The notes under the pieces are model-generated. The model saw only the letters and a list, made by a program, of their open reading frames with translations. It was not told the origin of the DNA and searched no databases. 35,982 bases of DNA from Haloplanus sp. (GTDB lineage Archaea > Halobacteriota > Halobacteria > Halobacteriales > Haloferacaceae): the NCBI RefSeq assembly GCF_028275055.1, contig NZ_JAQCNJ010000062.1, positions 1 through 35,982 of the forward strand, in the 5' to 3' direction. The position numbers and the translations under genes are program-made. Positions 10,002 to 27,925 of the stretch are shown piece by piece; the first letter of the stretch is position 1, and each line of letters starts with the position of its first letter.

Positions 10002-10024
10002 GGTTCCACTACCGGTTCCGTCCA

Positions 10025-10030: not shown

Positions 10031-10047
10031 CTGGGTGCCGTGTCATC

Positions 10048-10107
10048 ATGACCGACGACACCGCCGCCGAGAGCGAGTGGGCCGAGGCGGCTAAGGGTAA
10101 GGGCTAA
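10048..10107 (+). CDS. possible 19-aa leader peptide before the aminopeptidase
   Basis: A short ORF encodes MTDDTAAESEWAEAAKGKG. It starts ~21 nt after a TATA-like box and stops 25 bp before the aminopeptidase ATG. The acidic composition fits halophile coding sequence and would be unusual for random sequence, but at 19 codons this is weak evidence. I do not recognise the peptide. It could be a leader peptide or simply 5' untranslated sequence of the aminopeptidase transcript. Confidence 0.25.
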   Translation: MTDDTAAESEWAEAAKGKG

Positions 10108-10132
10108 CCCCTGTGCGTCCCTACTGACGTTC

Positions 10133-11095: not shown

Positions 11096-11147
11096 CCACA
11101 ACGCCTGCCGCGTTCTTCGATGACGCGGCGCGTGCCGGAAGGGCGGA

Positions 11148-11155
11148 TTTTTACC
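11148..11155 (+). promoter_or_regulatory. TATA-like box of the zinc-finger / pcm operon
   Basis: TTTTTACC is centred about 26 nt before the ATG at 11177, consistent with a leaderless transcript that would also carry the downstream methyltransferase gene. Confidence 0.5.
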
Positions 11156-11176
11156 GCCTGACCGGCTACAGTCGGT

Positions 11177-11839: not shown

Positions 11840-11849
11840 GGGTAAGAAT

Positions 11850-12482
11850 ATGGATTTCGACAGCGCCTGTGCCGACCTCGTCGACGGTTTGGTCGACGCC
11901 GGGCGGATCGACCGTCCGGCCACGGAGCGGGCGTTGCGTGCCGTCCCCCGTCACGAGTTCGTCCCTACGTCGTGTCGGGAGGCGGCCTACCAGGACCGTC
12001 CGCTCCCCATCGGCGAGGGACAAACGATCAGCGCCCCGCATATGGTGGCGATGATGAGCGATCTGTTCGCGCCCGACCCCGGCGACCGGATCCTCGAAAT
12101 CGGAACCGGCTGTGGCTACCACGCCGCCGTGACGGCCGAACTCGTCGACGACACGGTGTACAGCGTCGAGGTCGAACCCGCACTTGCCGACCGGGCACGC
12201 GACCGCTTCGACCGACTCGGCTACGACGTTCGCGTCCGGGTCGGCGACGGGTTCGACGGCTGGCCGGCCGAGGCCCCCTACGACGGCGCGTATCTCACCT
12301 GCGCCCCCGAGTCGACCCCCGGTCCGGTCGTCGAGCAGGTTCGTCCGGGAGCCCGGATCATCGCCCCCGTCGGCCGCGGCCGACAGGAACTCGTTCGCCT
12401 GACCCGCCGGGCCGATGGCGGGGTTGACCGCAGCCGTCACGGCGGTGTCCGGTTCGTCCCGATGCGCTCGCCCGACAGCTAA
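11850..12482 (+). CDS. pcm: protein-L-isoaspartate O-methyltransferase
   Basis: A 210-aa enzyme that methylates L-isoaspartyl residues formed by spontaneous damage, using S-adenosylmethionine, so that normal aspartate can be restored. The full set of PCMT motifs is present: RHEFVP, DRPLPIGEGQTISAPHMVAMM (the loop that holds the substrate carboxylate), the SAM site ILEIGTGCGYH at residues 81-91, YSVEVEPALADRAR, VGDGFDGWP and DGAYLTCAPE. The chosen ATG follows the zinc-finger gene by 10 bp; the ~70 codons open upstream in this frame overlap that gene and are not protein-like. It is followed after 41 bp by a paralogue. Confidence 0.92.
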   Translation: MDFDSACADLVDGLVDAGRIDRPATERALRAVPRHEFVPTSCREAAYQDRPLPIGEGQTISAPHMVAMMSDLFAPDPGDRILEIGTGCGYHAAVTAELVDDTVYSVEVEPALADRARDRFDRLGYDVRVRVGDGFDGWPAEAPYDGAYLTCAPESTPGPVVEQVRPGARIIAPVGRGRQELVRLTRRADGGVDRSRHGGVRFVPMRSPDS

Positions 12483-12493
12483 CGGAGCGTACG

Positions 12494-12502
12494 GTTGATA
12501 AG
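12494..12502 (+). promoter_or_regulatory. TATA-like box of the second pcm-family gene
   Basis: GGTTGATAA is centred ~26 nt before the ATG at 12524, between the two methyltransferase genes. It suggests the paralogue has its own leaderless promoter, perhaps besides read-through. Confidence 0.4.
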
Positions 12503-12523
12503 CGCTCGCCCCAAGCCGTCAGT

Positions 12524-13297
12524 ATGGACCCTGCGGTGTTGCGCGATGATATGGTCGACGGCGTCGCTCACGCCCTCGACGGCCTCGACGAACGGCTGGG
12601 GACGGCCATGCGAACGGTGCCACGCCAGTCGTTCGTTGAGGACCGGCCGTACGACAACCGTGCCGACGACCACGCCGGGAGCGACGTGTTGGCCCCCGAG
12701 ACGGTCGCTCGGCTGCTCGACGCCCTTGACGCCGGCAGCGAAGACGACGTGCTCGTCGTCGGCGTCGGTGTCGGCTACACGGCGGCGCTTCTGGCCGAAC
12801 TCGTCGGCGAGCGACGCGTTCACGCCGTCGACATCGTGCGCCGTCTCGTTCTCGACGCCCGGCACAACTTAGGCGAGGCGGGCTACGACGGCGTTCTCGT
12901 CGACCGCCGGGACGGCGCGGACGGTCTTCCGGAGTACGCACCGTTCGACCGTGTACTCGTCGAGGCGGCGGCGGTCCGACCGCCTCGTTCGCTTCTCGAT
13001 CAACTCGCTCCGGACGGCCGGCTGGTGATGCCGATGGGGCTGCCCGAAGCGGCGCTCGTCGCCGTTGAGGCAGACGACTCGCCGGATGGGTTCCGAATCG
13101 TCGAGGAGTTCGGTACTGCGACGTTCGCACCACTCCTCGTCGACGGCGAACAGCCCGGCGGCATGGCGCGCAACCGGACGGAACGCGAGGACCGCGAGTT
13201 CGAACAACAGGGCTACTTCGCTCCGACGGGCTGGGAACAGAACTGGATCGACTGGGACGACCGACTCGACGGCGGACGCGGCCACCGTCGCCGATGA
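12524..13297 (+). CDS. isoaspartyl methyltransferase-family paralogue
   Basis: A 257-aa protein related to the preceding pcm. It keeps RTVPRQSFVE, a SAM-binding VLVVGVGVGYTAALLAEL at residues 76-93, HAVDIVRRLVLDAR, DGLPEYAPFDRVLVEAAA and LVMPMG. The substrate-binding GQTISAPHM loop of true PCMT is replaced by DHAGSDVLAPETVARLL, so the active-site Ser and the following Pro-His are not in place. The C-terminus has ~50 extra residues (FAPLLVDGEQ, QQGYFAPTGWEQNWIDWDDRL). It is probably an AdoMet-dependent protein methyltransferase with altered or lost isoaspartate specificity. The tandem arrangement suggests old duplication. Confidence 0.8.
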   Translation: MDPAVLRDDMVDGVAHALDGLDERLGTAMRTVPRQSFVEDRPYDNRADDHAGSDVLAPETVARLLDALDAGSEDDVLVVGVGVGYTAALLAELVGERRVHAVDIVRRLVLDARHNLGEAGYDGVLVDRRDGADGLPEYAPFDRVLVEAAAVRPPRSLLDQLAPDGRLVMPMGLPEAALVAVEADDSPDGFRIVEEFGTATFAPLLVDGEQPGGMARNRTEREDREFEQQGYFAPTGWEQNWIDWDDRLDGGRGHRRR

Positions 13298-13586
13298 CAC
13301 GTCGCAAGCTCCCGTCGCCGTCGGCCCGCCCCGACCCGAGCGGCGTGACCGACGCCGCGACGACATCGCCCCCCGCCGAAGCCGTCCGGTCGACGATACA
13401 CCGGTCACGATCCGACAGCCGGACGCCGAGCGGGCTTCTCGGCGGTTCGAACGACCCGACGGCCTCCCGCAAAGCAACACGGCGGCAGAACGCACCGGTT
13501 GTCCCGACAACCGTCCCGGTACGAACGGATCGACGGCGGGTGCATACGGGCCCGCCACAGGCCCCGCCGGCGAGCGTCGCCGTCGC

Positions 13587-14030
13587 CTACCCCCGCACCA
13601 CCAGCACCTTCGTGTTCCCCCGTCGGTCGACGTAGCCGCTCCCGGCGGGCGGTTTCACCTCGATCAGCAGCGTCCCCTCGTCCTGATTCGGCCTGAGCGC
13701 TGGCGTCGCTGAGACGGTCGCGACCCCGTTCTCGCCGGTGGTCGCGGTCCGGACGCCGTCGAGGTCCGCGCTCCCGCTTTTTACGAGCACCGTCGCGTCC
13801 GCGACGGCCGTCCCGTCCGCGCCGACGACCGTGAGTTCGATCGACCGGTCGCCCGGTTCGACCACCTCCGGTTCGGGGCGTACGTCGAGTTCCGTCGTCG
13901 ACAGCCCTTGAATGCCGGTCAACATGTTCATCATCACGCTCAGGCTGGCGACGCCGATCACAAGCGCGATAACCAGTCTGATCGGTAGCCCCTCGATGGC
14001 TCGCCGGTCCGCTCGGAACGCGTCGAACAT
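13587..14030 (-). CDS. membrane-anchored Ig-like/carboxypeptidase-regulatory-like protein (probably DUF7382)
   Basis: A 147-aa protein. It has a short charged N-terminus (MFDAFRADRRAIEG), one hydrophobic segment at residues ~16-38 (LPIRLVIALVIGVASLSVMM), then a beta-sandwich-like domain: PEPEVVEPGDRSIELTVVG, DGTAVADATVLVKSG, TGENGVATV and a final NTKVLVVRG. This looks like the repeat unit of carboxypeptidase-regulatory or transthyretin-like domains exposed outside the cell on a membrane anchor. The short N-terminus before the hydrophobic stretch is also reminiscent of archaeal pilin-type signals, but I see no clear processing site. The start at 14030 is used because the codons upstream in frame enter the divergent promoter. 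It is divergent from a HerA-like ATPase gene, 76 bp apart. Confidence 0.75.
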   Translation of the reverse strand: MFDAFRADRRAIEGLPIRLVIALVIGVASLSVMMNMLTGIQGLSTTELDVRPEPEVVEPGDRSIELTVVGADGTAVADATVLVKSGSADLDGVRTATTGENGVATVSATPALRPNQDEGTLLIEVKPPAGSGYVDRRGNTKVLVVRG

Positions 14031-14075
14031 GGGCCGGGCTGGCCTCCGCCTCCCATTTGAATCTCCGTGTGCAGA

Positions 14076-14081
14076 TTTATA
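14076..14081 (+). promoter_or_regulatory. TATA box of the HerA-like ATPase gene
   Basis: TTTATA is a textbook haloarchaeal TATA box, centred 28 nt before the GTG start at 14107. It supports the GTG as the real start of a leaderless transcript. Confidence 0.6.
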
Positions 14082-14106
14082 CGTGATCGGGCGACCAGCC
14101 TGATCC

Positions 14107-15165
14107 GTGCATGTGCTCGGACGTAACGGCCGACGGGAGGGACCCGCCGCCCGCCTCGGCACGTACCGCGCCGCGGACGGGAGCGACGGCGCGGCGGTCG
14201 GACTGGATCTAGACGCCCCTCATGCGGCGCTCGTGGTGGGCAAGCGTGGCTACGGCAAATCATACACGCTGGGCGTTCTCGCGGAGGACGCGGCGCGCGC
14301 GCCGGGTGTCGCACCCGTGGTCGTCGATCCGATGGGCGGGTTCGACGGCCTCGCGGCCGGGTCGGCCGTTCCCGCACGCGTTGTCGACTCACCCGCGGTC
14401 CCCACGTCGACGCTCCCTCCGGCGGCGTGGCCGGAGCTGTTCGACCTTTCGCCGACGGGTTCCGTCGGGTCGGTGCTGTGGGAAGCCGCGGCCGCGGCCG
14501 ACACGCTCGATGGTATGTCGGCTCACATCGAGGCAGCCGGGGTCGACGCCGGCGTCCGGCGGGCCGCCCGAAACCATCTCGCGCTTGCCGACTCGTGGGA
14601 CGTTTTCGACGCCGACGCCCTCGACGCCGCGGCGTTGCTTTCCGGCGAGGCGACCGTTCTTGACTGCTCGTCACTCGACGACCGCGCCGCGTCGGTCCTG
14701 ATCCACGCCGTCGCGTCGGGGCTGTACGCGGCCTGTGTCGACGGTCGTCCGTCCCGGCTCCCGTGGGTGTTTCTCGACGAGTCGCACACCGCCTTCGACG
14801 GCGTCGCGTCGGCGGCGTTGGAGACGTTGCTGACCCGCGGTCGGACGCCGGGCGTCTCGCTCGTCGCCGCCACACAGCGCCCCGACGCACTGCCGGCGAC
14901 GGCCGTTTCGCAGGCGGACCTTCTGATCGCACACAGACTGACCGCAGCCGACGACGTTGCCGCACTGTCCGCGGCCGCCCCGACGTATCTGGAGGGACGG
15001 CTCCGCGACCGACTGCCGGCCACCCCCGGCGAGGCCGTCGTCGTCGACGACACCACCGAGTCGGTCCACGGCGTTCGAATCCGGGACCGGGAGACACCCC
15101 ACGGCGGGACGGACCCGCGAGCAAGCGAGCGCGCCGGTGGGACCGACTCCGGCGACGCGTTATAG
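14107..15165 (+). CDS. HerA/DUF87-like ATPase
   Basis: A 352-aa P-loop ATPase of the HerA/FtsK class. Walker A is GKRGYGKS at residues 45-52, with PVVVDPMGGFDGLA after it. Walker B is VFLDES with D224-E225, followed by a sensor-like LTRGRTPGVSLVAATQRPDALP; the ATQRP is typical of HerA-like proteins. The family includes DNA translocases and pumps acting on DNA or proteins, often as hexamers. Length is shorter than full HerA and there is no clear N-terminal HAS-barrel beyond ~35 residues, so its job may differ. The start is a GTG backed by a well-placed TATA box. It is divergent from a small membrane protein, a pairing I believe recurs in haloarchaea. Confidence 0.85.
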   Translation: MHVLGRNGRREGPAARLGTYRAADGSDGAAVGLDLDAPHAALVVGKRGYGKSYTLGVLAEDAARAPGVAPVVVDPMGGFDGLAAGSAVPARVVDSPAVPTSTLPPAAWPELFDLSPTGSVGSVLWEAAAAADTLDGMSAHIEAAGVDAGVRRAARNHLALADSWDVFDADALDAAALLSGEATVLDCSSLDDRAASVLIHAVASGLYAACVDGRPSRLPWVFLDESHTAFDGVASAALETLLTRGRTPGVSLVAATQRPDALPATAVSQADLLIAHRLTAADDVAALSAAAPTYLEGRLRDRLPATPGEAVVVDDTTESVHGVRIRDRETPHGGTDPRASERAGGTDSGDAL

Positions 15166-15320
15166 TCCGGCCACTCCCCCCGACGACCGGAGGTCGAGCC
15201 GAACGGCCGGAACAGCACTCCGTGTAGGGTTCGACCGCTCGTGGGCGCACGTAGACGCCGGCGTTAGATCGAGGCCCGACGCCACCCGGTGCCTGCCCCG
15301 AACAGACCGCCTCCTCACCC

Positions 15321-15335
15321 CCGGCTTCGAGCCGG
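15321..15335 (+). terminator. small GC-rich hairpin
   Basis: CCGGCT-TCG-AGCCGG is a perfect 6-bp stem with a 3-nt loop, located in the ~210-bp gap after the HerA-like ATPase and ~45 bp before a 34-aa gene. There is no T-run after it, so a terminator role is a guess. The rest of the gap (15166-15378) shows nothing else I recognise. Confidence 0.25.
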
Positions 15336-15378
15336 TAACCCCAGTCTACTTAGGTGATAGCTCGGCTTACGGAGTGGT

Positions 15379-15483
15379 ATGGACTGGCTCACAGAGCGCG
15401 ATCGGCAACGCATCTCCGAGTTCGTGTCGACACCGAAATACGAGCGGCGGCCGGAAATGCTGATCCCCGAGCCGGACGAGTGA
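15379..15483 (+). CDS. 34-aa conserved-looking microprotein
   Basis: The ORF encodes MDWLTERDRQRISEFVST followed by a basic PKYERRPEML and an acidic end IPEPDE. The composition is coding-like: charged, with an amphipathic first half and no run of Arg/Pro/Ser as in out-of-frame sequence. A TACTTAGG stretch is centred ~29 nt before the ATG and may be a weak TATA box. It ends 13 bp before the stop of the convergent winged-helix gene. I believe similar short proteins occur in other haloarchaea, but cannot name a family. Confidence 0.55.
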   Translation: MDWLTERDRQRISEFVSTPKYERRPEMLIPEPDE

Positions 15484-15496: not shown

Positions 15497-15772
15497 TCAC
15501 AGGAGGTTCTGCGCCTCGATGATCTTCCAGATCTCCCGTCCTTGATCGGTGATACCGTAGATACGGCCCTTCTTCCGAGATTCGGGGACGAGCAGGTCGA
15601 CCAGTTCCCGCTCGCGGAGGTCGTTGAGCGCCCGGGAGACATGCGACGCGGCACAGTCGGTGTCGGCAGCGATTTTCGACGGCGGCGCCGGCGAATCGGC
15701 CAACCGTCGGAGCACCTCAACGCGATAGGTGGAGCTGATGACGTATCCGATCTCGTCCCAGTCGGTACTCAT
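15497..15772 (-). CDS. winged helix-turn-helix transcriptional regulator
   Basis: A 91-aa protein made almost wholly of one winged-helix domain: IGYVISSTYRVEVLRRLAD, PPSKIAADTDCAASHVSRALNDL (helix-turn-helix, residues ~30-55), RELVDLLVPESRKKGRIYGITDQGREI (wing). This is the ArsR/MarR-like haloarchaeal type that reads like a small DNA-binding repressor with no ligand domain. On the minus strand GGTTATCAC (15813-15820) would be its TATA box with a ~15-nt leader. Between it and the start lies an 11-bp palindrome, CTCGT-G-ACGAG (15799-15809), a candidate for autoregulation. Confidence 0.85.
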   Translation of the reverse strand: MSTDWDEIGYVISSTYRVEVLRRLADSPAPPSKIAADTDCAASHVSRALNDLRERELVDLLVPESRKKGRIYGITDQGREIWKIIEAQNLL

Positions 15773-15822: not shown

Positions 15823-16172
15823 CATGGAGTCAGTTCCGCTCGGCCGCAGTCGTTCGATCCGGCCCGCCGTGGTTGTGGGGTCCGAACACTGTGTACCGTA
15901 CGTCCCCGCCGCACTCAGGTATATGTATCCTACCGGTGGTAAGCGCCGACCGCCCGTTCGCACCGATCTCTCGCCGTCACGATCAAGCGAGATACGGCGC
16001 GATCCGCCGCCCGCATCGGGCCATACGGTCGGGGGGCCTCCACCGACCGTGCGGCCGGCATCGCCCGCTAAGCGATTCCTACCGCTCCCGGTAGGATGGC
16101 CTTTTTCCATCGGTGGGCAGCCGAACGCGACCCGCACCCATCCGGTAGCGACACCGTACCGACCCTGTCAGA
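15823..16172. other. 350-bp spacer with hairpins, no recognised gene
   Basis: No frame here reads like a halophile protein; the open frames are rich in Arg, Pro and Ser. Two hairpins are visible: ACGGTCGG-N10-CCGACCGT (16025-16050) and CCTACCG-N4-CGGTAGG (16078-16095), the latter followed by TTTTT at 16102-16106 like an intrinsic terminator on the plus strand. A TATATG at 15920-15925 could be a promoter, but no start codon follows at a suitable distance. A small RNA between this promoter and the terminator-like hairpin is possible, but unproven. Confidence 0.3.
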
Positions 16173-16179
16173 ACAGTTA
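16173..16179 (+). promoter_or_regulatory. TATA-like box before a short upstream ORF
   Basis: AGTTATC is centred ~28-29 nt before the ATG at 16205. This places the transcript start at the upstream micro-ORF rather than at the 71-aa gene that follows at 16285. Confidence 0.4.
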
Positions 16180-16204
16180 TCCCCCGTAGCCGGTACCTAC
16201 GTGT

Positions 16205-16288
16205 ATGCAGACCAACTGCGCGGTCGTCGACCACGACCCGCGCCTAGGGCGGCAGACGTGGGGGGGCTTGGCGGTGGATCGAGCATGA
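16205..16288 (+). CDS. possible 27-aa leader peptide overlapping the next gene
   Basis: The ORF runs MQTNCAVVDHDPRLGRQ and ends ...LAVDRA. Its TGA overlaps the ATG of the 71-aa gene in the sequence ATGA, so a ribosome ending here could restart on the next gene. The ATG has a TATA-like box at the leaderless distance. I do not recognise the peptide; it is listed because of the promoter position and the exact overlap. Confidence 0.3.
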   Translation: MQTNCAVVDHDPRLGRQTWGGLAVDRA

Positions 16289-16500
16289 GCGACTCCTCTG
16301 ACGGGGCTTGGGAAAACGCCGCGGCCGATCCGGACCCGGCCGACGATCTGGGGTATGAACACGACCCCTTGACCGCCATCCACGTTGACGAGGACCGCGA
16401 GCAGTACATCTTTCTCCCCGCCGAGGAGGCCCACCTCACCGACGCCGAGTTCATCATCGTCCCGCCGGACGATGTCCACCGGCTGGCGGACTGGCGCTGA
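16285..16500 (+). CDS. small acidic haloarchaeal protein of unknown function
   Basis: A 71-aa protein that reads like a compact acidic domain: WENAAADPDPADDLGYEHD, then AIHVDEDREQYIFLP, EEAHLTDAEFIIVPPDDVHRLADW. I recognise the overall pattern (an N-terminal AAADPxPxxDLGYE, then a beta strand ending in FLP and a DAFIxxxP motif) from short haloarchaeal proteins of unknown function but cannot give a family number. The ATG at 16285 is preferred over the in-frame ATG at 16096 because the upstream residues are not conserved-looking. It converges with a DUF7344 gene, with stops 2 bp apart. Confidence 0.75.
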   Translation: MSDSSDGAWENAAADPDPADDLGYEHDPLTAIHVDEDREQYIFLPAEEAHLTDAEFIIVPPDDVHRLADWR

Positions 16501-16502
16501 CC

Positions 16503-17057
16503 CTACAGGTCATCGGGAACCAGTTCCGCCCGGATCTCCTCCCGTTGTTTCCGGTGGTGCCAGTACTCGACGCCGGCCGTCACCACGTACCCGGCGATGA
16601 GCCCGCCGGCCAACCAGAGCAACAACGTCGATCCAACGAACGGTGCCGCGAACACACCGAGAGCGACCACCGCACCGCCAACGAGCAGCAGGGCGAGATA
16701 ATGGCGTCGCCACGGATAGGTCGACGTTCCCTTCGGCGTGAGAAACGCGTCCATGTCGGTGGCTTGATCGGTCAGCCGGACGGTCCCCTCGTTGACGTCG
16801 TAGTCGACCATCCCCGTCTCCGCGAGCCTCGGCAGGTGGATCTGGTAGAGCGAGACGTACACCCGTTTGCGTTGTTGGCTGGTCAGCTCCTCGATTTCGA
16901 TCTCGTTTTCCCACGCCGCGATCTGTTCGGCGAGTCCATTCATCGTGGCCCCGCCGTCGTTCCGTCGGAGGTAGTACAACACCATCCGTCGGCGTTGACT
17001 GCTGAGTATCTCGAAGATCTGATCCGAGTCCAACGATGTCGGGGTGGAGGAACTCAT
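16503..17057 (-). CDS. DUF7344 winged-helix membrane protein (first of two)
   Basis: A 184-aa protein with an N-terminal winged-helix of the haloarchaeal DUF7344 type: QIFEILSSQRRRMVLYYLRR, GLAEQIAAWENEIEIEELTSQQRKRVYVSLYQIHLPRLAETGMVDYD, then a short wing. Residues ~115-165 hold two hydrophobic segments (YLALLLVGGAVVALGVFAAP and LLLWLAGGLIAGYVVTAG), followed by a charged EYWHHRKQREEI tail. This suggests a DNA-binding regulator tethered to the membrane, sensing an unknown signal. Regulation is not visible in the sequence. It is 124 bp from a second gene of the same family on the same strand. Confidence 0.85.
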   Translation of the reverse strand: MSSSTPTSLDSDQIFEILSSQRRRMVLYYLRRNDGGATMNGLAEQIAAWENEIEIEELTSQQRKRVYVSLYQIHLPRLAETGMVDYDVNEGTVRLTDQATDMDAFLTPKGTSTYPWRRHYLALLLVGGAVVALGVFAAPFVGSTLLLWLAGGLIAGYVVTAGVEYWHHRKQREEIRAELVPDDL

Positions 17058-17181: not shown

Positions 17182-17868
17182 TCACTCCGACGGTGCTGGC
17201 GTGACCCACGGGACCGCCGGTCGGTCGGTTCCGGACTCGGAGCCATGTTGGGGGAGATGCCACACCGCACCGCCCACGACGACCGCCACGACCGCCATCG
17301 CAACCAACGACACGAGCGGTGTCATCTGCAGGTAGACCGCGACCGGGAGGAGGCTGGTTCCGAGAATCGACAGCCCGACGAAACGGTTGTTCCACCTCAG
17401 ACCGCCGGCCGCGTCGTCGGGTTGGAGATACGACCTGAAACAGTCGATGTGTTCGCCACGCTCGATCGTTCCCCGCGGTTTGTCGAAGTCCACGATGCCC
17501 ATCCCATCCATCTTCGGCAGATGACACTGGTACAGCCCGACGTAAACCCGTTTTCGCTCGCTCGACGTGATCTGTCTGATCTCCTTGTCGTTTTCCCACG
17601 CCGCGATCCGTTCGGCGAGTTCGCTCAGCGACACCTGCCCGTCGACGGTGTATAGATATTCGAGGACGTGTCGCCGCCGCTGATTTTTGAGTATCTCGAA
17701 CGTCTGATCGAGCGGGAGCGCACGCTCGGAGCTTCCCGGTTCCGTTCCATCCCGTTCTGTCGTCGCCTGACCGTCGTTCTCGATACCATCGCTCGATCCT
17801 TGGTCTCGAGACTCGTCGACGCTCGATGCGAACTCCTGTTCCGCCGTGGTTCCGGTGTACTCTGGCAT
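17182..17868 (-). CDS. DUF7344 winged-helix membrane protein (second of two)
   Basis: A 228-aa paralogue of the adjacent gene. The first ~55 residues are a disordered acidic tail, then DQTFEILKNQRRRHVLEYL, SLSELAERIAAWENDKEIRQITSSERKRVYVGLYQCHLPKMDGMGIVDFD. Two hydrophobic segments follow at ~165-205 (FVGLSILGTSLLPVAVYL and LVSLVAMAVVAVVVGGAVWHL). The ATG at 17868 gives MPEYTGTTAEQEF; further in-frame starts reach 17955 but the extra residues are not domain-like. The pair shares the RKRVYV-LYQ-HLP core almost exactly, so it came from duplication with divergence of the tails and membrane parts. Confidence 0.85.
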   Translation of the reverse strand: MPEYTGTTAEQEFASSVDESRDQGSSDGIENDGQATTERDGTEPGSSERALPLDQTFEILKNQRRRHVLEYLYTVDGQVSLSELAERIAAWENDKEIRQITSSERKRVYVGLYQCHLPKMDGMGIVDFDKPRGTIERGEHIDCFRSYLQPDDAAGGLRWNNRFVGLSILGTSLLPVAVYLQMTPLVSLVAMAVVAVVVGGAVWHLPQHGSESGTDRPAVPWVTPAPSE

Positions 17869-18363
17869 TGTTACTCGTGGTGGGCGCTCGGACAGAACGG
17901 AGACTAACCCGGTCCGTGTGCCCATGGTTCCGATTACAGTACCTCGACACATCATGTAAAACAGGCAGTAATTTGACTCACGAACGGGTTGTGAGAAAGC
18001 GAGTGACCGACGGGTGCGTCGAGCTGCCCGATGTTACGGGGACCATGGTCGACGCTCCCGTCCGGCCGACGGTGTCCGGCCGCCGTCCCGGATACGGCGT
18101 GTCCACGACCCGATCCGACCCGGCTCACCGGGCGCCGTCGACCCGGGTCGGGTATAGACCGGTTACTCGACGGTGACTGTGACACTCTGTTCATAACAAA
18201 GCCCGAGACGCGCCTTCCCGGTAGTATCGAGGTCGATCGAACGGATGACAGTCATCACCACGGCAGGCCGAGCGGCGATAACGCGAACCGAACCGACGAA
18301 CGACACGGTGATTGGGCGCCCCACGCGGGTGGGACCCGGCTCCGACACCCAGGGGTGCCCCTG
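17869..18363. other. 495-bp spacer before glmS
   Basis: No convincing gene is visible on either strand. It contains a 10-bp palindrome GACCATGGTC near 18043 and a 12-bp perfect palindrome CGACCCGGGTCG at 18139-18150 directly before GGTATAGA (18151-18158), which looks like an operator next to a TATA box. A promoter there would give the following glmS gene a leader of ~180 nt. A 39-codon ORF (18245-18364) ends on the glmS start codon, but its promoter spacing is poor. Confidence 0.35.
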
Positions 18364-19782
18364 ATGTGTGGGATCACCGCCTGCATCGGCGGCTCCGACA
18401 CGGCCGAGCGGGTGGTTACCAGTCTGGAGAACCTAGAGTACCGTGGCTACGATTCCGCGGGCATCTCACTCGCTGACAGCGCCGGCGTCACGGTGGAAAA
18501 GAGTCAGGGCGACGTCGCCGCGCTCCGAAACGGGCTCTCGACGGAGCGCCTCGACGGCCGCGTCGCTATCGGGCACACGCGGTGGAGTACACACGGCGCC
18601 CCCTCCGACGCGAACGCACACCCACACACGAACTGTTCGGGGACCGTCGCCGTTGTCCACAACGGAATCATCGAGAACCACGACGGCCTCCGGGCCGACC
18701 TTCGGGACCGAGGCCACGAGTTCACCAGCGACACCGACTCGGAGGTCGTCCCTCACCTCGTCGGCGAGCGACTCGCGGCGGGCGACGACACGCTGACGGT
18801 GTTTCGTGGCGCCGTCGCCGAACTCGAGGGGAGCTATGCCATCGCGATGACCGTTGCCGGCGAGGAGCGCGTCTACGCGACCCGAAACGGGTCGCCGCTC
18901 GTTCTCGGCGCCGGCGACGGGGCGAACTACCTCGCAAGCGACGTGCCGGCCTTTCTCGAGTTTACCGACCGGGTCGTCTACCTCAAGGACGGCGACATCG
19001 CCGTCATCGGCCCCGACACCTACCGGATCACCGACGGCGCGACCCGTCCCGTCGACCGACCCGTCGAAACGGTCGACTGGGCGGCCGAATCCGCCGAGAA
19101 ATCCGGGTACGACCACTTCATGCTCAAAGAGATTCAGGAGCAACCGGTGGCCCTCCGCCAGACCATCGAGGGCCGGGTCGACGACGGCGAGGCCGTGCTC
19201 GATGACTTTCCACCCGGCGCGTTCGAAAACGTTTCGAGCGTCCAACTCGTCGCCTGTGGCACGTCATACCACGCCGCCATGTACTGCGAGCGCCTGCTCT
19301 CGGAGTGGGGGGTTCCGTCGTCGTCGTTTTTGGCGAGCGAGTACGCCGTCTACCCACCGGCCATCGACGAGGAGACGCTTGTCGTCTGTGTGACCCAGAG
19401 CGGCGAGACGGCCGACACGCTCGAGGCGATGCGTGTCGCTCAGCAGGCGGGTGCGAGAACGCTCGCGGTGACGAACGTTGTCGGGTCGACGGCCGCGAGG
19501 GGGTGTGCCGACTCGCTTTTCATCCGGGCAGGCCCCGAAATCGGCGTCGCCGCCACAAAGACCTTCTCCTCGCAGGTGGTGACTCTCTTTCTTCTCGGCC
19601 TGCGTCTGGCGGCCGACGTCACCGGTACGCCGGTCGACGCCGTCGTGGTCGTCACGCCACACGACGAGTTCACGACCCTCGACTGGGATCGGTTCGACGC
19701 CCCAATTCTCGACGGCCGGGGATCGATCGACCGGACGGCGGTCGACGCCCCGGTCTACACCATCGGCGGGCGGTGGCCCTGA
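18364..19782 (+). CDS. glmS: chimeric glmS: GlmS N-terminus and SIS1 joined to a dehydrogenase-like tail
   Basis: The 472-aa product starts as a normal glutamine:fructose-6-phosphate aminotransferase, the enzyme that makes glucosamine-6-phosphate for UDP-GlcNAc. It has the Cys2 nucleophile in MCGITACIGG, LEYRGYDSAG, GHTRWSTHGAPS, HNGIIENH, and a first SIS domain (VACGTSYHAAMYCERLL, VCVTQSGETADTLEAM, GVAATKTFSSQVV). After LAADVTGTPVDA (residue ~425) it departs from the family: the second SIS domain (~160 aa with catalytic residues and the C-terminal tail) is missing. Instead come ~48 residues, VVVVTPHDEFTTLDWDRFD, LDGRGSID and VYTIGGRWP, which match the C-terminal UDP-binding end of UDP-glucose/UDP-ManNAc dehydrogenases. 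The frame is open throughout. It is probably inactive as a synthase. The next gene begins 2 bp later. Confidence 0.8.
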   Translation: MCGITACIGGSDTAERVVTSLENLEYRGYDSAGISLADSAGVTVEKSQGDVAALRNGLSTERLDGRVAIGHTRWSTHGAPSDANAHPHTNCSGTVAVVHNGIIENHDGLRADLRDRGHEFTSDTDSEVVPHLVGERLAAGDDTLTVFRGAVAELEGSYAIAMTVAGEERVYATRNGSPLVLGAGDGANYLASDVPAFLEFTDRVVYLKDGDIAVIGPDTYRITDGATRPVDRPVETVDWAAESAEKSGYDHFMLKEIQEQPVALRQTIEGRVDDGEAVLDDFPPGAFENVSSVQLVACGTSYHAAMYCERLLSEWGVPSSSFLASEYAVYPPAIDEETLVVCVTQSGETADTLEAMRVAQQAGARTLAVTNVVGSTAARGCADSLFIRAGPEIGVAATKTFSSQVVTLFLLGLRLAADVTGTPVDAVVVVTPHDEFTTLDWDRFDAPILDGRGSIDRTAVDAPVYTIGGRWP

Positions 19783-19784: not shown

Positions 19785-20912
19785 ATGCTCGAGAGCCTCG
19801 CGAGTCGACCGGCCGGCGACGTACCGACCCGGTCAGCGACGGACGACGGCGTCCGGGTGTTGTTCGATGTCGGCCACCCGGCACAGGTCCACCTGTTCCG
19901 TAACGCGATCACCGGACTCGAATCGCTGGGCCACGAGACGTACGTTACGTCCCGGGAGAAGGAGGTGACCGTCGACCTTCTCGACGCGTACGGCATCGCC
20001 CACACGACGCTCACGACGCGGGGGGACTCGCTTCCGGCGTTGTTGTCCGAACAACTGCTCCACGAGACCAGACTCTTCTCCGTCGCCCGCCGGTTCGACC
20101 CCGATGTCGTCGTCAGCCGGCTCAGTCCCGTGCCGGCCCACGTCTCGCGGCTGGTCGGGTGCCGGAGCGTGGCGGTCAGCGACACCCACATCGACAAGCG
20201 GCTGGTGCGCCTGCTCTACCACGGGGTCACTCTCCCCTTCGTCGACACGCTCTGTGTGCCCGAAAGTTTCGAACTCTCGATAGACGACGCGAAACGCCGC
20301 CCGATGGATTTTCAGGAACTCGCATACCTCCACCCGGCGTATTTCGATCCGGATCCGGATATCCTGTGGAACCACGGCCTCACCCCCGATGAGACGTTTT
20401 TCGTCGTCCGCGTCGCGGGGTGGGACGCGTACCACGACGCCGGCTACGCCGGCCTGTCGCCGCCGGCGATCCGTCGGCTGGTGGATATGCTCTCCGAGGA
20501 GGGAGCGGTGTTCGTCTCGGCGGAGGACACGCTCCCGACGGATCTCGAGGCCCACCGGCTCCCGACCGATCCGGAGAACATCCACCACGTGCTCCACTAC
20601 GCCGACCTCTACGTCGGCGACTCCGGAACGATGTCGACGGAGGCGGCGCTGCTGGGCACGCCGGCAATCAGAACCAACACGATGGTCGGTGACGACGACG
20701 AGAACGTCTTCCAGCAACTCGAAGACCGGTACGAACTCCTCCGTTCGTTCGCCGATGAGGACCAGGCTCTTCGGGCGGTTCAGCAGTTGCTCGCCCGAGG
20801 TATCGACCGCATCGACTGGGACGAGCGCCGCGACCGGTTGCTGGCCGAACAGCCCGACGTGACCCGACTGATCGTCGAGACGATACTCGAAAGCGAAGCA
20901 GACGCCACATAA
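19785..20912 (+). CDS. DUF354 glycosyltransferase-like protein
   Basis: A 375-aa protein that begins, after ~20 residues, with VLFDVGHPAQVHLFRNAI, followed by GHETYVTSREKEV and later VVSRLSPVPAHVSRL, SVAVSDTHIDKRL and a C-terminal LYVGDSGTMSTEAALLGTPAI. The last block is the MurG/GT-B-like sugar-nucleotide site, as in UDP-GlcNAc 2-epimerase-type enzymes. DUF354 proteins occur in haloarchaeal surface-polysaccharide clusters and are thought to transfer or modify sugars; the exact reaction is not known. The ATG at 19785 lies 2 bp after the chimeric glmS stop, so they share a transcript. This position also supports the idea that the dehydrogenase tail was once its natural neighbour. Confidence 0.85.
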   Translation: MLESLASRPAGDVPTRSATDDGVRVLFDVGHPAQVHLFRNAITGLESLGHETYVTSREKEVTVDLLDAYGIAHTTLTTRGDSLPALLSEQLLHETRLFSVARRFDPDVVVSRLSPVPAHVSRLVGCRSVAVSDTHIDKRLVRLLYHGVTLPFVDTLCVPESFELSIDDAKRRPMDFQELAYLHPAYFDPDPDILWNHGLTPDETFFVVRVAGWDAYHDAGYAGLSPPAIRRLVDMLSEEGAVFVSAEDTLPTDLEAHRLPTDPENIHHVLHYADLYVGDSGTMSTEAALLGTPAIRTNTMVGDDDENVFQQLEDRYELLRSFADEDQALRAVQQLLARGIDRIDWDERRDRLLAEQPDVTRLIVETILESEADAT

Positions 20913-20921: not shown

Positions 20922-21185
20922 ATGACAACGACCGACCTACCGAACGATCAGACACAAACCGTCGAGATTCCCGAACGGACCGCCGACGCCGTTGCCGACC
21001 GACTCTCCGGCACGGAGTTCGACTCGATCGACGACTACGTCGCGTTCGCCCTCGAGCGGTTGCTCGGCGAACTCGACCGGACGGATTCCACAAGCGACCG
21101 GCCCCCTGTTCCCGACGGCTCGGACGACGACAGCCCCGCCGACGAGGCGGTTGCCGACCGCCTCGAATCGCTTGGCTACCTGTGA
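20922..21185 (+). CDS. ribbon-helix-helix-like small protein
   Basis: An 87-aa protein whose first half fits a ribbon-helix-helix (CopG-like) domain: a short strand TVEIPER, helix TADAVADRLSG, turn TEFDSID and helix DYVAFALERLLGEL. The second half is a disordered acidic linker ending in EAVADRLESLGYL. The LGYL end is a motif I associate with the tails of haloarchaeal sulfatases and small proteins next to sulfate-activation or surface-sugar genes. It follows the DUF354 gene by 9 bp and is probably in the same operon. Whether it binds DNA is unknown. Confidence 0.7.
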   Translation: MTTTDLPNDQTQTVEIPERTADAVADRLSGTEFDSIDDYVAFALERLLGELDRTDSTSDRPPVPDGSDDDSPADEAVADRLESLGYL

Positions 21186-21450
21186 TCGACCGGCCGCCGC
21201 TTCTCGCTACCCACTGAGACCCAGACCTGCGCACCAGACGGCGACGCGTCGGCGACCACAAGCCGGTCTCCCGATTAATCACAACCCACTGATTCTCGAA
21301 AATGTAACGGAGCTATGGACGTTCCGTTCCGCTCCCCGGGTGCCGCTTCCACCGGCCGGAGGTCATATGCCACGAACCACCCCCACCACACGCCGTCGGA
21401 GCGCGCACAGTCTCGTCACAACCGACCGACTCGCCGGGGGCACCTGACCC

Positions 21451-21597
21451 GTGCCCGAGTGCAACCGGTGTGGGGCGTTCGTCACCATCCGTTTCACCCG
21501 TGTCTTCGGGAACAACGAGGATGCCGTGTACGGTTGTCGCGACTGCCTGCCGGTTTCGGCGCTCGTTGACGGTGCCGCGTCGCGAGACGGCTCCTGA
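21451..21597 (+). CDS. DUF7563-type zinc-finger microprotein
   Basis: A 48-aa ORF beginning with GTG at 21451 reads (M)PECNRCGAFVTIRFTRVF, then AVYGCRDC and a short tail. Two CxxC knuckles (CNRC and CRDC, ~27 residues apart) would bind one zinc ion. The N-terminus, PxCxxCGxFVTxxxxRVF, is the signature of the small haloarchaeal DUF7563 family, of unknown function. It is too short for most gene finders. The 265 bp before it (21186-21450) contain no gene I can support. Confidence 0.65.
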   Translation: MPECNRCGAFVTIRFTRVFGNNEDAVYGCRDCLPVSALVDGAASRDGS

Positions 21598-21886
21598 ACG
21601 GTTCTCGGTCACCGAACACCCCCACTTTGTTGCCGACCACCGGCCCCACGCCGCCCCTCTTACCCCAGGCCACACACCCGCACAGATTGGTCAGATACCT
21701 CCTCTTACCTCACACCCATCACACCGTACCGCATGACTCCGGTCGGGTCAGTGCAGCGCCGACAGGCGCTTCTCCCGGCTGCTTATGTGCGATAAGCCGG
21801 GCGAACGGAACCGTCGGTTGAATAAGCCGATCGAACCGAAATCCAACCAACGCATAACAAAACCCGGAGCGGCCGGTGGGGGATAC

Positions 21887-22816
21887 GTGGTACGATCCAA
21901 TGCGGACGACGGTGACACAGCCGAACAGGATTCGAACGACAGCACACGACGGCAGTTCGCCGTCGGATCGGCCGGTGTCCTCGGGGGACTCGCGGTCGGT
22001 GGCGCGCTCAGTGAGTCCGCGATGGCCCAAGTGGACGACGGAAGCGGCGACGGCGGGGACGGCGACACGTCCGAGGAACCGGCGTTCGAGGACGACGTCG
22101 CCGTTCTCAACTACGCGCTGACGCTTGAGTATCTCGAGGCTCGCTTCTACCAGCGAGGACTGGACAACATCGGCGAGGAGGACCTTTGTAACTGCAAGGC
22201 GCTCGCCGAGGACAGCTACCTGCGCGACCGTGTGTTCGACGAACTTCGGACGATCCAGGCACACGAGGAGACACACATCGAGACGCTCGTCGCGACCATC
22301 GAGGACCTCGGCGGCGACCCCATCGACGAACCGGCGTTCGACTTCGGTGTCCGCGTGGAGTACCCGATGGCCTTTCTCGGCACGGCTGTCCAACTCGAAG
22401 ATGCCGGCGTGTCGGCGTACGCCGGCGCGGCACCCGCCATCGAGAACGAGGACCTGATCCCCCCGGCGCTCAGCATCCACAGCGTCGAGGCGCGCCACGC
22501 ATCGTTCCTGCGGACGGTCTCCGACCAGACGGGCTTCCCGAACGCCTTCGACGAGGCGCGCTCGAAGGCCGAGGTTCTCGACGTCGCCAGCACGTTCATC
22601 GTCGACCCGGAGGCGTCCGATACCGACTCCGATACCGACTCCGAGACGGAGACGGAGACGGAGACGGAAACCGGGACGGAGAACGGCACCGAGACCGGAA
22701 CGGGGACAGGGAACGAAACCGACTCCGGCACCGAGACGGAGACGGGGACGGAAACGGGGACCGGGACCGACTCCGGGACAGGAAACGAAACCGACCCCGG
22801 CACCGAGACAGCGTAG
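21887..22816 (+). CDS. Tat-exported ferritin-like protein with Thr/Glu/Gly-rich tail
   Basis: A 309-aa protein from the GTG at 21887. A Tat signal (STRRQFAVGSAGVLGGLAVGGA) follows an acidic 26-residue start; AMAQ is the likely cleavage area. The ferritin-like domain (about residues 75-230) shows FEDDVAVLNYALTLEYLEARFYQ, IQAHEETHIETL and VEARHASFLRTV, helices with Glu and His residues that could bind a di-iron site. The end is a long TETETGTE-type linker. The start is preferred over ATG 21785 because CATAACA (~21853-21859) lies ~30 nt before the GTG and the preceding codons do not look like a signal peptide. It is probably a cell-surface protein; the iron or redox role is inferred. Confidence 0.85.
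   Translation: MVRSNADDGDTAEQDSNDSTRRQFAVGSAGVLGGLAVGGALSESAMAQVDDGSGDGGDGDTSEEPAFEDDVAVLNYALTLEYLEARFYQRGLDNIGEEDLCNCKALAEDSYLRDRVFDELRTIQAHEETHIETLVATIEDLGGDPIDEPAFDFGVRVEYPMAFLGTAVQLEDAGVSAYAGAAPAIENEDLIPPALSIHSVEARHASFLRTVSDQTGFPNAFDEARSKAEVLDVASTFIVDPEASDTDSDTDSETETETETETGTENGTETGTGTGNETDSGTETETGTETGTGTDSGTGNETDPGTETA
22618..22812 (+). repeat. low-complexity Thr/Glu/Gly/Asp codon repeats in the ferritin-like gene
   Basis: Tandem GAGACG-type and GGGACC-type units encode an alternating acidic-Thr tail (SDTDSDTDSETETE, then TETETGTENGTETG and similar). It is a coding minisatellite, likely to vary in length between strains and to be a flexible surface linker, not a CRISPR or structural RNA. 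Confidence 0.8.
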
Positions 22817-22972
22817 CGAGCATCAACTGGCGCGCGACCCCGTTCTTTCGAGACGCACTTTCGAGTTGATCCCGATCCACAACTGATCACGATGATAACA
22901 TCATCCTACCGGTCCCGAGCGTCGACTACCGGCTTCATAACGAAACGTCCAGGGGTGGTACGCCGGACCGGA

Positions 22973-23215
22973 ATGGCACGAACCGTAACCGACGCCGACG
23001 ACGGCAAGCCCGTGGTCGATTCGGACGGCGAACAGATCGGACAGGTTTCGAGAATTCAGGACGGGACGGCGTACGTGGCCCCCGAGGAGGGACTCACAGA
23101 CACCATCCGATCCGCGCTCGGGTGGGACGACGGAGTCCAAGACGACTACGCGTTGCACGCGGGCCGCATCGATCAGGTGACCGACGTCGAAATCCGGCTG
23201 AACGACAACGGCTAA
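22973..23215 (+). CDS. PRC-barrel-like small protein
   Basis: An 80-aa protein: MARTVTDADDGKPVVDSDGE, QIGQVSRIQDGTAYVAPEEGL, TDTIRSALGWDD, then a HAGRIDQVTDVEIRL end. The VxDxxGExIGxVxxIxDGTxYVxP pattern and the closing helix-strand are typical of short PRC-barrel-like or stress-related haloarchaeal proteins. CTTCATAAC (22933-22941) is a probable TATA box with a short leader. The start at 22973 is chosen over ATG 22892 because the upstream residues are basic and unlike the rest. The function is unknown. Confidence 0.7.
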   Translation: MARTVTDADDGKPVVDSDGEQIGQVSRIQDGTAYVAPEEGLTDTIRSALGWDDGVQDDYALHAGRIDQVTDVEIRLNDNG

Positions 23216-23308
23216 TCCGTTCGGTCCCGGGCCACCACGGCGCGTAACACTCGCGGTCTCCGATAGGACGCGCATAACTACCTTTCCGATCCCCGTTTGA
23301 ACCGACGA

Positions 23309-23380
23309 ATGCGGAACGTTCCAATCGAATCGCATCCGATCACCGTCCCGGGCCATCGACCCCCCGTCAGTCTCCCATGA
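23309..23380 (+). CDS. possible 23-aa leader peptide overlapping DUF4129 gene
   Basis: The ORF MRNVPIESHPITVPGHRP...P stops in the ATGA that starts the DUF4129 gene. A CATAACTA (23273-23280) lies ~32 nt before its ATG. It may allow translation by coupling from a near-leaderless transcript. There is no evidence for a functional peptide; chance is possible. Confidence 0.2.
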   Translation: MRNVPIESHPITVPGHRPPVSLP

Positions 23381-24147
23381 GTCGGTCGCGCACCGTTCCG
23401 GTCGTTCTCGCCTTGTTGGCCGTCTCGACGCTCGGTGTCGCGGCGACGTCGCTGGAGACGACGCTGACGACCGACCCCGGCGACGCCATCGACCCGAGTT
23501 GGGAGCATCTGCCCATCGGTGAGGACGACGCCGCCACGATCCGTGACGAGATGGACGGCGACGCCGACACCGGCGAGACGCGGCCGACGGGTGCCAACGA
23601 GGGGACCGACGGCCCCGAGCACCGCCCCGGAAACGACGGGACCGGTGACCGGACCGCTCCGGCCGACCGTGCCGACAAAGGCGACGGGAACGCGCCCGGC
23701 ACCCTCGGCTTCGGGTCCGGCGGCGGTGTCGGGTCGTCCGCGACCCCGCCGTTGCCCTTTCTGTGGTTGTCGTTGCTGGTTTGTTGTGTCGTGACCGCCA
23801 CCGTCGCGTACCGCTACCGCGCGAGGCTTCGCTCCCTGTTCGGCCTCGCGCCGACGCCGACGGACGCGCCTGACCCCTCCTCGGAGGGTGCCCGGCCCGG
23901 GGCGTCCCCCTCGAACGTCGTCGAGCGCGCGTGGGTCACGATGGTCACACGACTGAACCCCGACCGCCCCGAGTCGACGACGCCGGCGGAGTGCCGGGCG
24001 CTCGCACGCGACCGTGACGCGGACGCCATGGCCGTCGACGCCATCGCCACGTCGTTCGAGCGGGTTCGGTACGGCGGCATCCCCGTCGACGAGGAGGCCG
24101 ACCGGGCGCGGGCGGCGCTCGAACGCCTCGACCGGGGAGCGAAATGA
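23377..24147 (+). CDS. DUF4129 membrane protein
   Basis: A 256-aa protein. An N-terminal signal-like segment (VPVVLALLAVSTLGVAA) precedes a disordered acidic Gly/Thr/Asp-rich region (residues ~45-120), then a transmembrane segment (PLPFLWLSLLVCCVVTATVA) at ~125-145 and a cytoplasmic DUF4129 domain with VVERAWVTMVTRL, TPAECRALARDRD and FERVRYGG. DUF4129 normally forms the C-terminal part of transglutaminase TgpA-like proteins encoded beside DUF58 and MoxR; here it is a free-standing gene and no transglutaminase is present in the window. It overlaps the next gene by 4 bp (ATGA). Confidence 0.8.
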   Translation: MSRSRTVPVVLALLAVSTLGVAATSLETTLTTDPGDAIDPSWEHLPIGEDDAATIRDEMDGDADTGETRPTGANEGTDGPEHRPGNDGTGDRTAPADRADKGDGNAPGTLGFGSGGGVGSSATPPLPFLWLSLLVCCVVTATVAYRYRARLRSLFGLAPTPTDAPDPSSEGARPGASPSNVVERAWVTMVTRLNPDRPESTTPAECRALARDRDADAMAVDAIATSFERVRYGGIPVDEEADRARAALERLDRGAK

Positions 24148-24749
24148 CCGTCCCAGCGACCCTCCAACCCCTCGCCACGCGGTCGATCCGAGGCGCAGTT
24201 CTGGCGCTCGGTGTCGCGGTGTCCGGCGTCGGACTCATACTCGCTTTTGTTCCCGGGGCGACCCAGCCGGTGCCGGTCGAGGCGGTGATCACGGCGCTCG
24301 GGAGCGACTATGTGGTCGTGGCGGTTCTCGGACTGTTGGCGGTCGGCCTCTCGGGACTCATCGTCGTGTCACGTCAGGTCCGCGGCGTCGACGAGGTGAC
24401 GCCACCGGTCGTCGAAGGCGTCCAGTCGGCCGACTACCCCGGACACTCGGTCGACAACGCCGCCGAGACCGGGTGGGGGTTCCGTCGGACCACCGCCCCG
24501 GACCCCCGGCCACGACTCGACGCGGCGGCTGTTCGAGCGACGATGCGCGCCGACGGCTGTTCGCGCGCCGCCGCGGAACGACAGGTTGCGGAGGGGTCAT
24601 GGACCGACGACGCCGTCGCCGCTCGGTATCTCCTCGACTCGGGCCACGACGGCGGCCGGGCGAGCGCCACACGACACGACCGGCCTCGACTCCGCCGGAC
24701 CGTCGACGCCATCGTGCGGCGCTCGGACGGAACGGAGGACGGCCGGTGA
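24144..24749 (+). CDS. DUF7269 membrane protein
   Basis: A 201-aa protein with two N-terminal transmembrane segments (GAVLALGVAVSGVGLILAF and VVVAVLGLLAVGLSGLIVV), then a soluble region with DEVTPPVVEGVQSADYPGHSVD, RAAVRATMRADG-like helix and ERQVAEGSWTDDAVAARYL. I recognise it as the DUF7269 family that lies between DUF4129 and DUF58 genes in haloarchaea. The function is unknown. It overlaps both neighbours by 4 bp, so translational coupling is almost certain. Confidence 0.75.
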   Translation: MTVPATLQPLATRSIRGAVLALGVAVSGVGLILAFVPGATQPVPVEAVITALGSDYVVVAVLGLLAVGLSGLIVVSRQVRGVDEVTPPVVEGVQSADYPGHSVDNAAETGWGFRRTTAPDPRPRLDAAAVRATMRADGCSRAAAERQVAEGSWTDDAVAARYLLDSGHDGGRASATRHDRPRLRRTVDAIVRRSDGTEDGR

Positions 24750-26152
24750 CGCGACTTCGCGACCTACGGCACGCGGTCGGCGGCGGCGACCCTGTCGGGT
24801 CCGTCGACCGGGCGGACGACAACGGAGACGGGGACTCGCAGACTCCGGCGGTCCGGCCGACGGGCCGGTGGCGCGGTGTCGTCGGCGTCGTTTTTCTCGC
24901 GGTGGCCGTCGGCATCCTCGCCAAGCGACCTGCGGTCCTGTTGATGGCGGCGGTGGGCGTCGTTTTCGCCGTCTACCCGCTTGTCACCACCGTCCCCGAC
25001 CCGACGCTCTCCGTCGACCGGCGGATCGACCCCGAATCGCCGGCCGACGGCGACGCCGTCGCCGTGCGGACCACGATCCGAAACGAGGGTGACGTCCCGT
25101 TGTTCGACCTCCGGATCGTCGACGGGCCGCCGCCGACCCTCTCGGTCGCGGGCGGGTCGCCCCGAGGTGGGGCGACGATCGGGCCGGGCGAGTCTGTGAC
25201 GCTCACCTACGACCTTCGGGCCCGCCCGGGCCGTCACCGGTTCGGACCCACAACGCTTCTGTGTCGCGACGCCAGCGGCGCGGTGGAGGTCGAGCGCCGA
25301 ATCGACGCCCCGGATCGGATCGACTGTTCGGCGACACTCCCCACGGTCCCGTTGCGCGGCCGGAGCGGTCACCGGACCGGACCGCTCGTCACCGACGACG
25401 GTGGGAGCGGCCTCGAGTTCCACTCGGTCACCGAGTACGAACGCGGCGACCCGGCCAACCGGATCGACTGGCGACGGTTCGCCCGGACAGGCGAACTCAA
25501 CTCGGTGACCTTCCGAACGGAGCGCCTCGCCGATGTGGTGGTGTGTATCGACGCCCGCCCGGACGCATACCGCGCCCGAAGCGATGACGACCCACACGCC
25601 GTTGCCCACGCTGTCGACGCCGCCGGACGGATCGGCGATGCGCTGCTTGACGCCAACCACCGCGCCGGTTTGGCGGCGTTCGGACGCGAAAGCTTTCTGC
25701 TCGCGCCGGGAAGCGGGGACGACCACGCCCACCGATTCCACCGGCGACTGGCGACGGCCCCGGCGCTCACACCATCCCCGCCGGAGTCGGTCGGCGCAAC
25801 GCGGGCGGTGGCGGACGAATCCACCCCTCGCTCCGACCCCGCCGCCCCCCTCGACCACCAACTCTCCGCGATCCGCGAACGCCTCGGATCGACCTGTCAG
25901 GTGGTTCTACTGACGCCGCTTTGTGACGGCGATGCACTCGACGTCGCCCGGCGATTCGAGAGCGATAACGCTCATGTAACAGTCGTCAGCCCCGACGTGA
26001 CGTCGGCGGACACGCCCGGCGGTCGGCTGGCCCGACTGGAGCGTGACAGCAGACTGGCCGCGTTGCGGAACGCAAACATTCCGGCCGCAGACTGCGACCC
26101 GGCCACGCCGCTCGGGTCGGCGCTCGAACACGTCGAACGGAGCCGGCGATGA
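24746..26152 (+). CDS. DUF58 protein (vWA-like, MoxR partner)
   Basis: A 468-aa protein starting with GTG that overlaps the previous stop (GTGA). Two transmembrane segments (VVGVVFLAVAVGILA and VLLMAAVGVVFAVYPLV) near residues 40-80 are followed by a beta-sandwich with DPTLSVDRRIDPESPADG, GDVPLFDLRI and RPGRHRFGPTTL, then the DUF58 core motif EYERGDPANRIDWRRFARTGEL near 231-251, and a vWA-like C-terminus (VVVCIDARPD, DALLDANHRAGLAAFG, CQVVLLTPLCDGDAL). DUF58 proteins work with MoxR AAA+ ATPases, in several known cases as a chaperone-like pair for secreted or membrane proteins. The moxR gene here is convergent, not in the same operon. Confidence 0.85.
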   Translation: MTRLRDLRHAVGGGDPVGSVDRADDNGDGDSQTPAVRPTGRWRGVVGVVFLAVAVGILAKRPAVLLMAAVGVVFAVYPLVTTVPDPTLSVDRRIDPESPADGDAVAVRTTIRNEGDVPLFDLRIVDGPPPTLSVAGGSPRGGATIGPGESVTLTYDLRARPGRHRFGPTTLLCRDASGAVEVERRIDAPDRIDCSATLPTVPLRGRSGHRTGPLVTDDGGSGLEFHSVTEYERGDPANRIDWRRFARTGELNSVTFRTERLADVVVCIDARPDAYRARSDDDPHAVAHAVDAAGRIGDALLDANHRAGLAAFGRESFLLAPGSGDDHAHRFHRRLATAPALTPSPPESVGATRAVADESTPRSDPAAPLDHQLSAIRERLGSTCQVVLLTPLCDGDALDVARRFESDNAHVTVVSPDVTSADTPGGRLARLERDSRLAALRNANIPAADCDPATPLGSALEHVERSRR

Positions 26153-26853: not shown

Positions 26854-26897
26854 GCCGTGACCGGTCGACTCGCCCCCGCCGGCGGTCAAAACGCCGG

Positions 26898-27851: not shown

Positions 27852-27925
27852 AGCGGCATCCGGCCCGCCACGGGGATCGTTATGCTCCGGGTATGCAGGC
27901 CGGGATCCGTCGCTCGTCGCCCGGC

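Follow-up and report, generated by a model that had tools for sequence, protein, structure and literature searches.

In Haloquadratum walsbyi, recombination and mobile elements make the cell-wall island GI1 variable, according to the passages of PMC4535781 devoted to it, and the sections of PMC3119063 on strain differences describe many deletions at short direct repeats as well as deletion-coupled insertions. The locus analyzed here is akin to GI1-type islands as portrayed in those passages (PMC4535781, PMC3119063), i.e. to variable surface-structure clusters altered by recombination, indels and deletion-coupled insertions, and fits the kind of island change seen in H. walsbyi (PMC3119063, sections on strain differences). 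It differs in two features absent from the H. walsbyi descriptions in those parts of PMC4535781 and PMC3119063: swapped gene blocks and a chimeric gene whose two parts are joined in frame at a seam.

The chimera combines pieces of two known protein families. Like GlmS (TIGR01135), it has a glutaminase and a first SIS domain (SIS1) and passes the curated cut-off of the family, but in place of the second SIS domain (SIS2) and the C-terminal end it carries a foreign tail. With dehydrogenases of the UDP-glucose/UDP-ManNAc type (UGDH; PF03721, PF03720) it shares the last 49 residues and the position of the stop codon, but the N-terminal and central parts are missing and, of the UDP-binding domain, only the final third remains. 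The observation is confirmed as real and is ordinary in kind, being most likely the scar of a rearrangement in a decaying surface-sugar island, with an anatomy richer than that of a plain deletion. Its interest lies in a surface-sugar island of a haloarchaeal genus whose shuffling and loss can be read gene by gene at the seam.

Anatomy of the chimeric reading frame

The stretch of DNA analyzed (35,982 nucleotides; hereafter the window) is the entire contig C56 of a draft genome from a haloarchaeon; this genome comprises 2,309,319 bases in 102 contigs and is 79.22% complete and 0.48% contaminated. The chimera (18364–19782, forward strand; 472 amino acids plus stop) occupies a single open frame that begins with MCGIT and matches Pfam profiles and TIGR01135. 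In its GlmS-derived part (18364–19632, forward strand), residues 2–418 correspond to positions 1–420 of the 607 in the TIGR01135 profile, scoring 512 bits against a cut-off of 418. The curated cut-off of NF001484 is likewise exceeded despite the missing SIS2. PF01380, the SIS domain, matches only once (residues 290–410), in agreement with the earlier note, which had reported the second domain as absent. The best PDB chain of GlmS aligns to residues 1–416, and GlmS of the related genome G073 is 73% identical across 422 residues. Residues C2, R73, W74, H77, H86, N100, G101 and D125 of the glutaminase, some of which are catalytic, are invariant in an alignment of 17 sequences (chimera included), as are G299–T300 and Q345–T349 of the first SIS domain.

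Downstream, the last 49 codons and the stop (19633–19782, forward strand) form the dehydrogenase tail. UDPG_MGDP_dh_C (PF03720) matches residues 423–456 with positions 64–102 of its 103, with an E-value of 0.0022 when the full protein is searched and 1.3e-4 when only its last 60 codons are, both below the family cut-off. What is a weak assignment by Pfam is clear, and indeed settled, by comparison with relatives. The 51-residue tail was matched in 20 of 59 other related genomes (top three at 80, 77 and 73%) and is 73–80% identical to the equivalent stretch in G022, G023, G038, G073, G108 and G305. In 13 loci inspected, the UGDH N-terminal part precedes such a tail (seen by translation in G022 and by tblastn in G326, G108, G073, G305, G250, G381, G156, G295, G391, G261, G301 and G329), and the chimera stops at the stop position of UGDH in G022 and G038. 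The NAD-binding N-terminal and central domains of UGDH (PF03721) are absent from the chimera.

By-eye comparison with the DNA of both genes in relatives placed the seam at 19627–19638 (forward strand), an interval that could be narrowed to the base only with the parent genes. The last GlmS-like codon is ~422–423 and the first UGDH-like codon 424 (19633), close to the switch at about residue 425 noticed earlier. At this point, GlmS relatives read ..DVTG-x-P.. and UGDH relatives ..VDAVVVVTPHDEF.. or near it, and all 26 relatives aligned around the seam carry on as GlmS.

GlmS needs SIS2 for its isomerase/synthase reaction; lacking it, the chimera should not be a working GlmS, even though it passes the cut-off of the glmS model. 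It should make no glucosamine-6-phosphate and oxidize no UDP-sugar, and at most hydrolyze glutamine. For annotation, this is a warning: with such a score attained in the absence of SIS2, a functional GlmS could be entered in pathway predictions where none exists.

The earlier note had also raised the prospect of a second, full-length glmS or of the missing gene parts elsewhere in the genome. Neither was found in the own assembly: the GlmS C-terminal half gave a best match of E 0.147, no piece of UGDH turned up beyond the tail (PF03721 gave five matches, all below cut-off), and no second GlmS was detected. At ~79% completeness, the absence of a locus from this assembly is weak evidence for true loss. 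The other TIGR01135 match, in contig C88, covers profile positions 1–197 only, as PurF-like glutaminases do, and was rejected as a second GlmS.

Nor does the chimera appear to represent a natural GlmS subfamily. No GlmS with this C-terminus occurred among the matches listed in the 59 other related genomes or among the best 80 of at least 587 loci in genome_contigs, where the two furthest-aligning, L140 and L152, proved to be GlmS with its own C-terminal half. Across 392 genomes of the order (own included), at least 11 matches span at least 25 residues on either side of the seam; those eleven, when fetched, were whole genes, for GlmS in G096, G358, G080 and G400 and for UGDH in G326, G156, G295, G391, G261, G301 and G329. 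A search of a plasmid collection gave no match, and no published title on such a GlmS/UGDH chimera was found in a literature search at the level of titles.

Gene order around the two halves

Each half of the chimera keeps its usual neighborhood, and the two neighborhoods meet at the seam. On the dehydrogenase side, the start codon of a DUF354 gene (19785–20912, forward strand) lies two bases past the chimera stop, followed by an ORF of 87 amino acids without Pfam match (20922–21185, forward strand). The same two genes follow UGDH in G023, G038, G073, G108, G305 and G250, bearing out the earlier suggestion of DUF354 as a plausible former neighbor of such a dehydrogenase; in G022, the 87-amino-acid ORF comes directly after UGDH, with no DUF354 between. 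On the other side, DUF7344 genes stand before glmS in the window, G038, G027, G056 and G073.

G073 has the closest intact island among the loci examined (L244). Along the UGDH strand, its order is UGDH, DUF354, the 87-amino-acid ORF, NUDIX, glmM, glmU and a HalOD1 ORF, after which a second block begins with a winged-helix gene, a small ORF and two DUF7344 genes and ends with glmS. In the window, this second block lies on the left: a winged-helix regulator (15497–15772, reverse strand; 85% over 91 residues in the G073 island), a small ORF without Pfam match (16096–16500, forward; 60% over 84 residues) and two DUF7344 genes (16503–17057 and 17182–17955, both reverse and matched in the G073 island, the latter divergent from glmS) lead to the chimera and, through it, to DUF354. 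There follow on the right the 87-amino-acid ORF, an extra stretch of ~7 kb, genes for a NUDIX protein (28166–28621, reverse) and a glmM-like phosphoglucomutase/phosphomannomutase (28669–30069, forward), both matched in G073, a glmU-like sugar-1-phosphate nucleotidyltransferase gene (30035–31355, forward) and, at the end of the block, the HalOD1 ORF (31356–31691, forward). In total, 12 window genes are matched in the G073 island, all in the same relative orientation; 11 of these matches are clear and that of HalOD1 is weak (33% over 84 residues, E 1.4e-5). Compared with G073, the blocks of the window are thus swapped with their orientations kept, a pattern resembling a circular permutation in which the chimera marks the seam, although two blocks allow so few arrangements that rotation alone is not strong evidence.

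The extra stretch (21785–28025), with genes for ferritin-like, DUF4129, DUF7269, DUF58, DUF7519 and MoxR-type AAA proteins, has no counterpart at the matching position in G073, where the flanking matches lie only 66 bases apart. Some parts of it have matches at other places in genomes of the same genus, and an ORF inside it (22892–23215) has a 36% match at a different place of the G073 island.

The sugar cluster of G073 extends past UGDH with Gfo/Idh, PylC-like and DegT genes, so UGDH is not its outermost sugar gene; past glmS stands a P-type ATPase gene. The window ORFs scanned included neither a PylC-like nor a DegT gene. A Gfo/Idh/MocA oxidoreductase gene does occur in the window (8952–10025), in a stretch absent from G004; its identity to genes that lie near UGDH in several relatives is 29–38%, and to the Gfo/Idh gene adjoining UGDH in G073 only 36% over 125 residues.

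We tabulated the closest glmS/UGDH pair for 35 genomes drawn from the matches listed, which are neither a complete nor a random sample (some genomes with the genes on separate contigs, e.g. G050, are omitted). In four genomes, the genes were unlinked. The 31 linked pairs comprised 12 with UGDH before glmS on one strand (G073 included), two with glmS before UGDH (G056, G175), 13 convergent and four divergent ones. The UDP-sugar genes here belong to a variable surface-sugar island, whose order and presence differ among relatives.

The island in same-genus genomes

In G004, a genome of the same genus, a single contig matches the window in order, namely at 2–15017 (83–88%, in pieces), 15025–15431 (74%), 31132–32057 (74%) and 32461–35587 (83%). 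The core flanks are common to both genomes: a HerA-like gene on the left (14107–15165, forward strand; 89% over 280 residues in G004) and a polyphosphate kinase gene on the right (32305–34899, forward strand), at the same place in G004. Between them, G004 keeps a damaged piece of DUF354 with stops, a region matching 21042–21590 at 76% and, of glmU, a match to the last 57 codons only. This layout implies that the right block really sits between the HerA and polyphosphate kinase genes. The chimera-bearing part has been lost from G004, so the seam itself cannot be confirmed there.

Among the matches listed, a PurF-like glutaminase is all that G004 offers to the chimera, the UGDH tail being unmatched; G008 and G010 look the same, and three of 11 same-genus genomes thus seem to live without GlmS. 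The island as a whole appears to be decaying, with glmU frameshifted in the window (near 30613–30631) and damaged in G001 and G004. In G073, glmU is one open frame, whereas the reading frame changes in both the window copy and that of G001; for the window, the split reflects either a pseudogene or a sequence error. In G001, only the end of glmM matches (L206, 7263–8779), beside a glmU with a frame change close to its end, ~380 kb away from the HerA gene of that genome. Given the frameshifted glmU close to the chimera, the copy of the UDP-GlcNAc branch encoded here probably no longer works.

The GlmS part of the chimera itself, to judge from its residues, is without visible decay. Against 96 columns conserved throughout 35 relatives it shows three departures, where the relatives themselves show 0 to 4. 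Counted from its divergence from the G073 sequence, it has gathered 29–38 amino-acid changes and the G073 side 28–31, depending on which of five outgroups is used, a slight excess that holds for four of the five. In the neighbors, the window side has no such surplus (DUF354, 17–27 in the window vs. 21–27 in G073; glmM, 19–20 vs. 26–35). The lack of visible decay may mean that the event was recent, that the protein is still selected or that the seam is an error. A recent event would be the simplest reading, and the chimera is most likely a recent relict.

Origin of the seam

Our tentative reading, to which we give slightly less than an even chance, is that the ORF marks the scar of a rearrangement in a variable UDP-amino-sugar/surface-polysaccharide island, in which a block closed on itself and reopened, leaving a relict product. 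A segment that begins in the 3′ end of UGDH, takes in DUF354, glmM, glmU and the regulators and ends with the first two-thirds of glmS would have been joined end to end, either as an excised circle or at the joint of a tandem duplication, and so placed glmS′ before ′UGDH in frame. The island would then have opened between glmU and the winged-helix gene, to lie where it now does between the HerA and polyphosphate kinase genes, with the 3′ end of glmS and the 5′ end of UGDH lost. The ORF would then be a young relict, through which translation may still be coupled to DUF354. This seam would arise in one step from a circle or from the joint of a tandem duplication; a block swap plus a deletion is a possible alternative route to the same layout. 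We infer both the route and the order of its events, and several findings count against a circle or duplication. No repeat beyond chance links the island edges or the seam (the longest direct match between the edges is 11 bases; shuffles reach 14), UGDH is not outermost in G073, the window has a Gfo/Idh gene of its own, and ORF 22892–23215 is matched elsewhere in the G073 island. That Gfo/Idh gene has only the low identity given above to the one in G073, but it lies in a stretch absent from G004. The scan for integrases, which covered part of the window ORFs, found none.

In addition, two genomes (G056, G175) already have an order sufficient for a plain deletion, the origin proposed in the earlier note. 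From an ancestor with glmS, other genes and UGDH on one strand, a single in-frame join would have yielded the relict product. This takes only one event, further loss at the same locus is plain in G004, and deletions at short direct repeats and deletion-coupled insertions separate H. walsbyi strains in the relevant sections of PMC3119063. The proposal stands as far as gene order in G056 and G175 goes; as a single deletion it fares worse, with only two of the 31 pairs so arranged and the blocks swapped in G073. UGDH comes before glmS in G073 and 11 other tabulated genomes, so that a block swap would have to precede the deletion. We regard a plain deletion as unlikely, though a rival to be reckoned with.

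Assembly error, the other possibility voiced in the earlier note, would mean a strain or strain mixture with intact genes in which sequence was skipped or misjoined at the seam. The draft state of the genome (102 contigs, 79.22% complete), the confinement of the chimera to the own assembly among the matches listed and its undecayed frame would all suit such an error. Against it, G004 has the outer flanks and the DUF354-to-glmU block at the same place, the own genome holds no second copy of the seam except a 50-base, 82% match in contig C92, and the two genes of relatives have no long word in common at the seam, by eye. A join of distant loci is made unlikely by the single G004 contig, with its same core flanks and the DUF354 and glmU remnants between them. 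The suspicion of misassembly is thereby weakened, a local error at the seam being what is left of it, and we consider an error quite improbable.

Least probable of the rivals is a working new protein under selection, be it a glutaminase, a regulatory SIS protein or a means of coupling translation to DUF354: the frame and conserved GlmS columns are kept and DUF354 is open and starts two bases past the stop, but SIS2 is absent, glmU is broken, the chimera is missing from the other genomes searched, among the matches listed, and the AlphaFold model, highly confident for most of the GlmS part, gives the tail a pLDDT of 28–41, a weak point that says little, as the alignment held no relatives of the tail.

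Returning to closure and reopening of a block, a broader claim would be that haloarchaeal UDP-sugar islands can move as circles or by way of tandem duplication, re-enter permuted and leave in-frame chimeras at the seam, whose protein may keep its glutaminase and couple translation to DUF354. We hold this to be a long shot.

As to the core flanks, HerA and DUF58 were tried as a pair; HerA helped and DUF58 did not. The fetched stretches of G006, G007 and G011 held no match to polyphosphate kinase beside HerA. In G004, the HerA-like gene is broken by ~1.1 kb relative to the window (L179, 79–1206), as by an inserted element.
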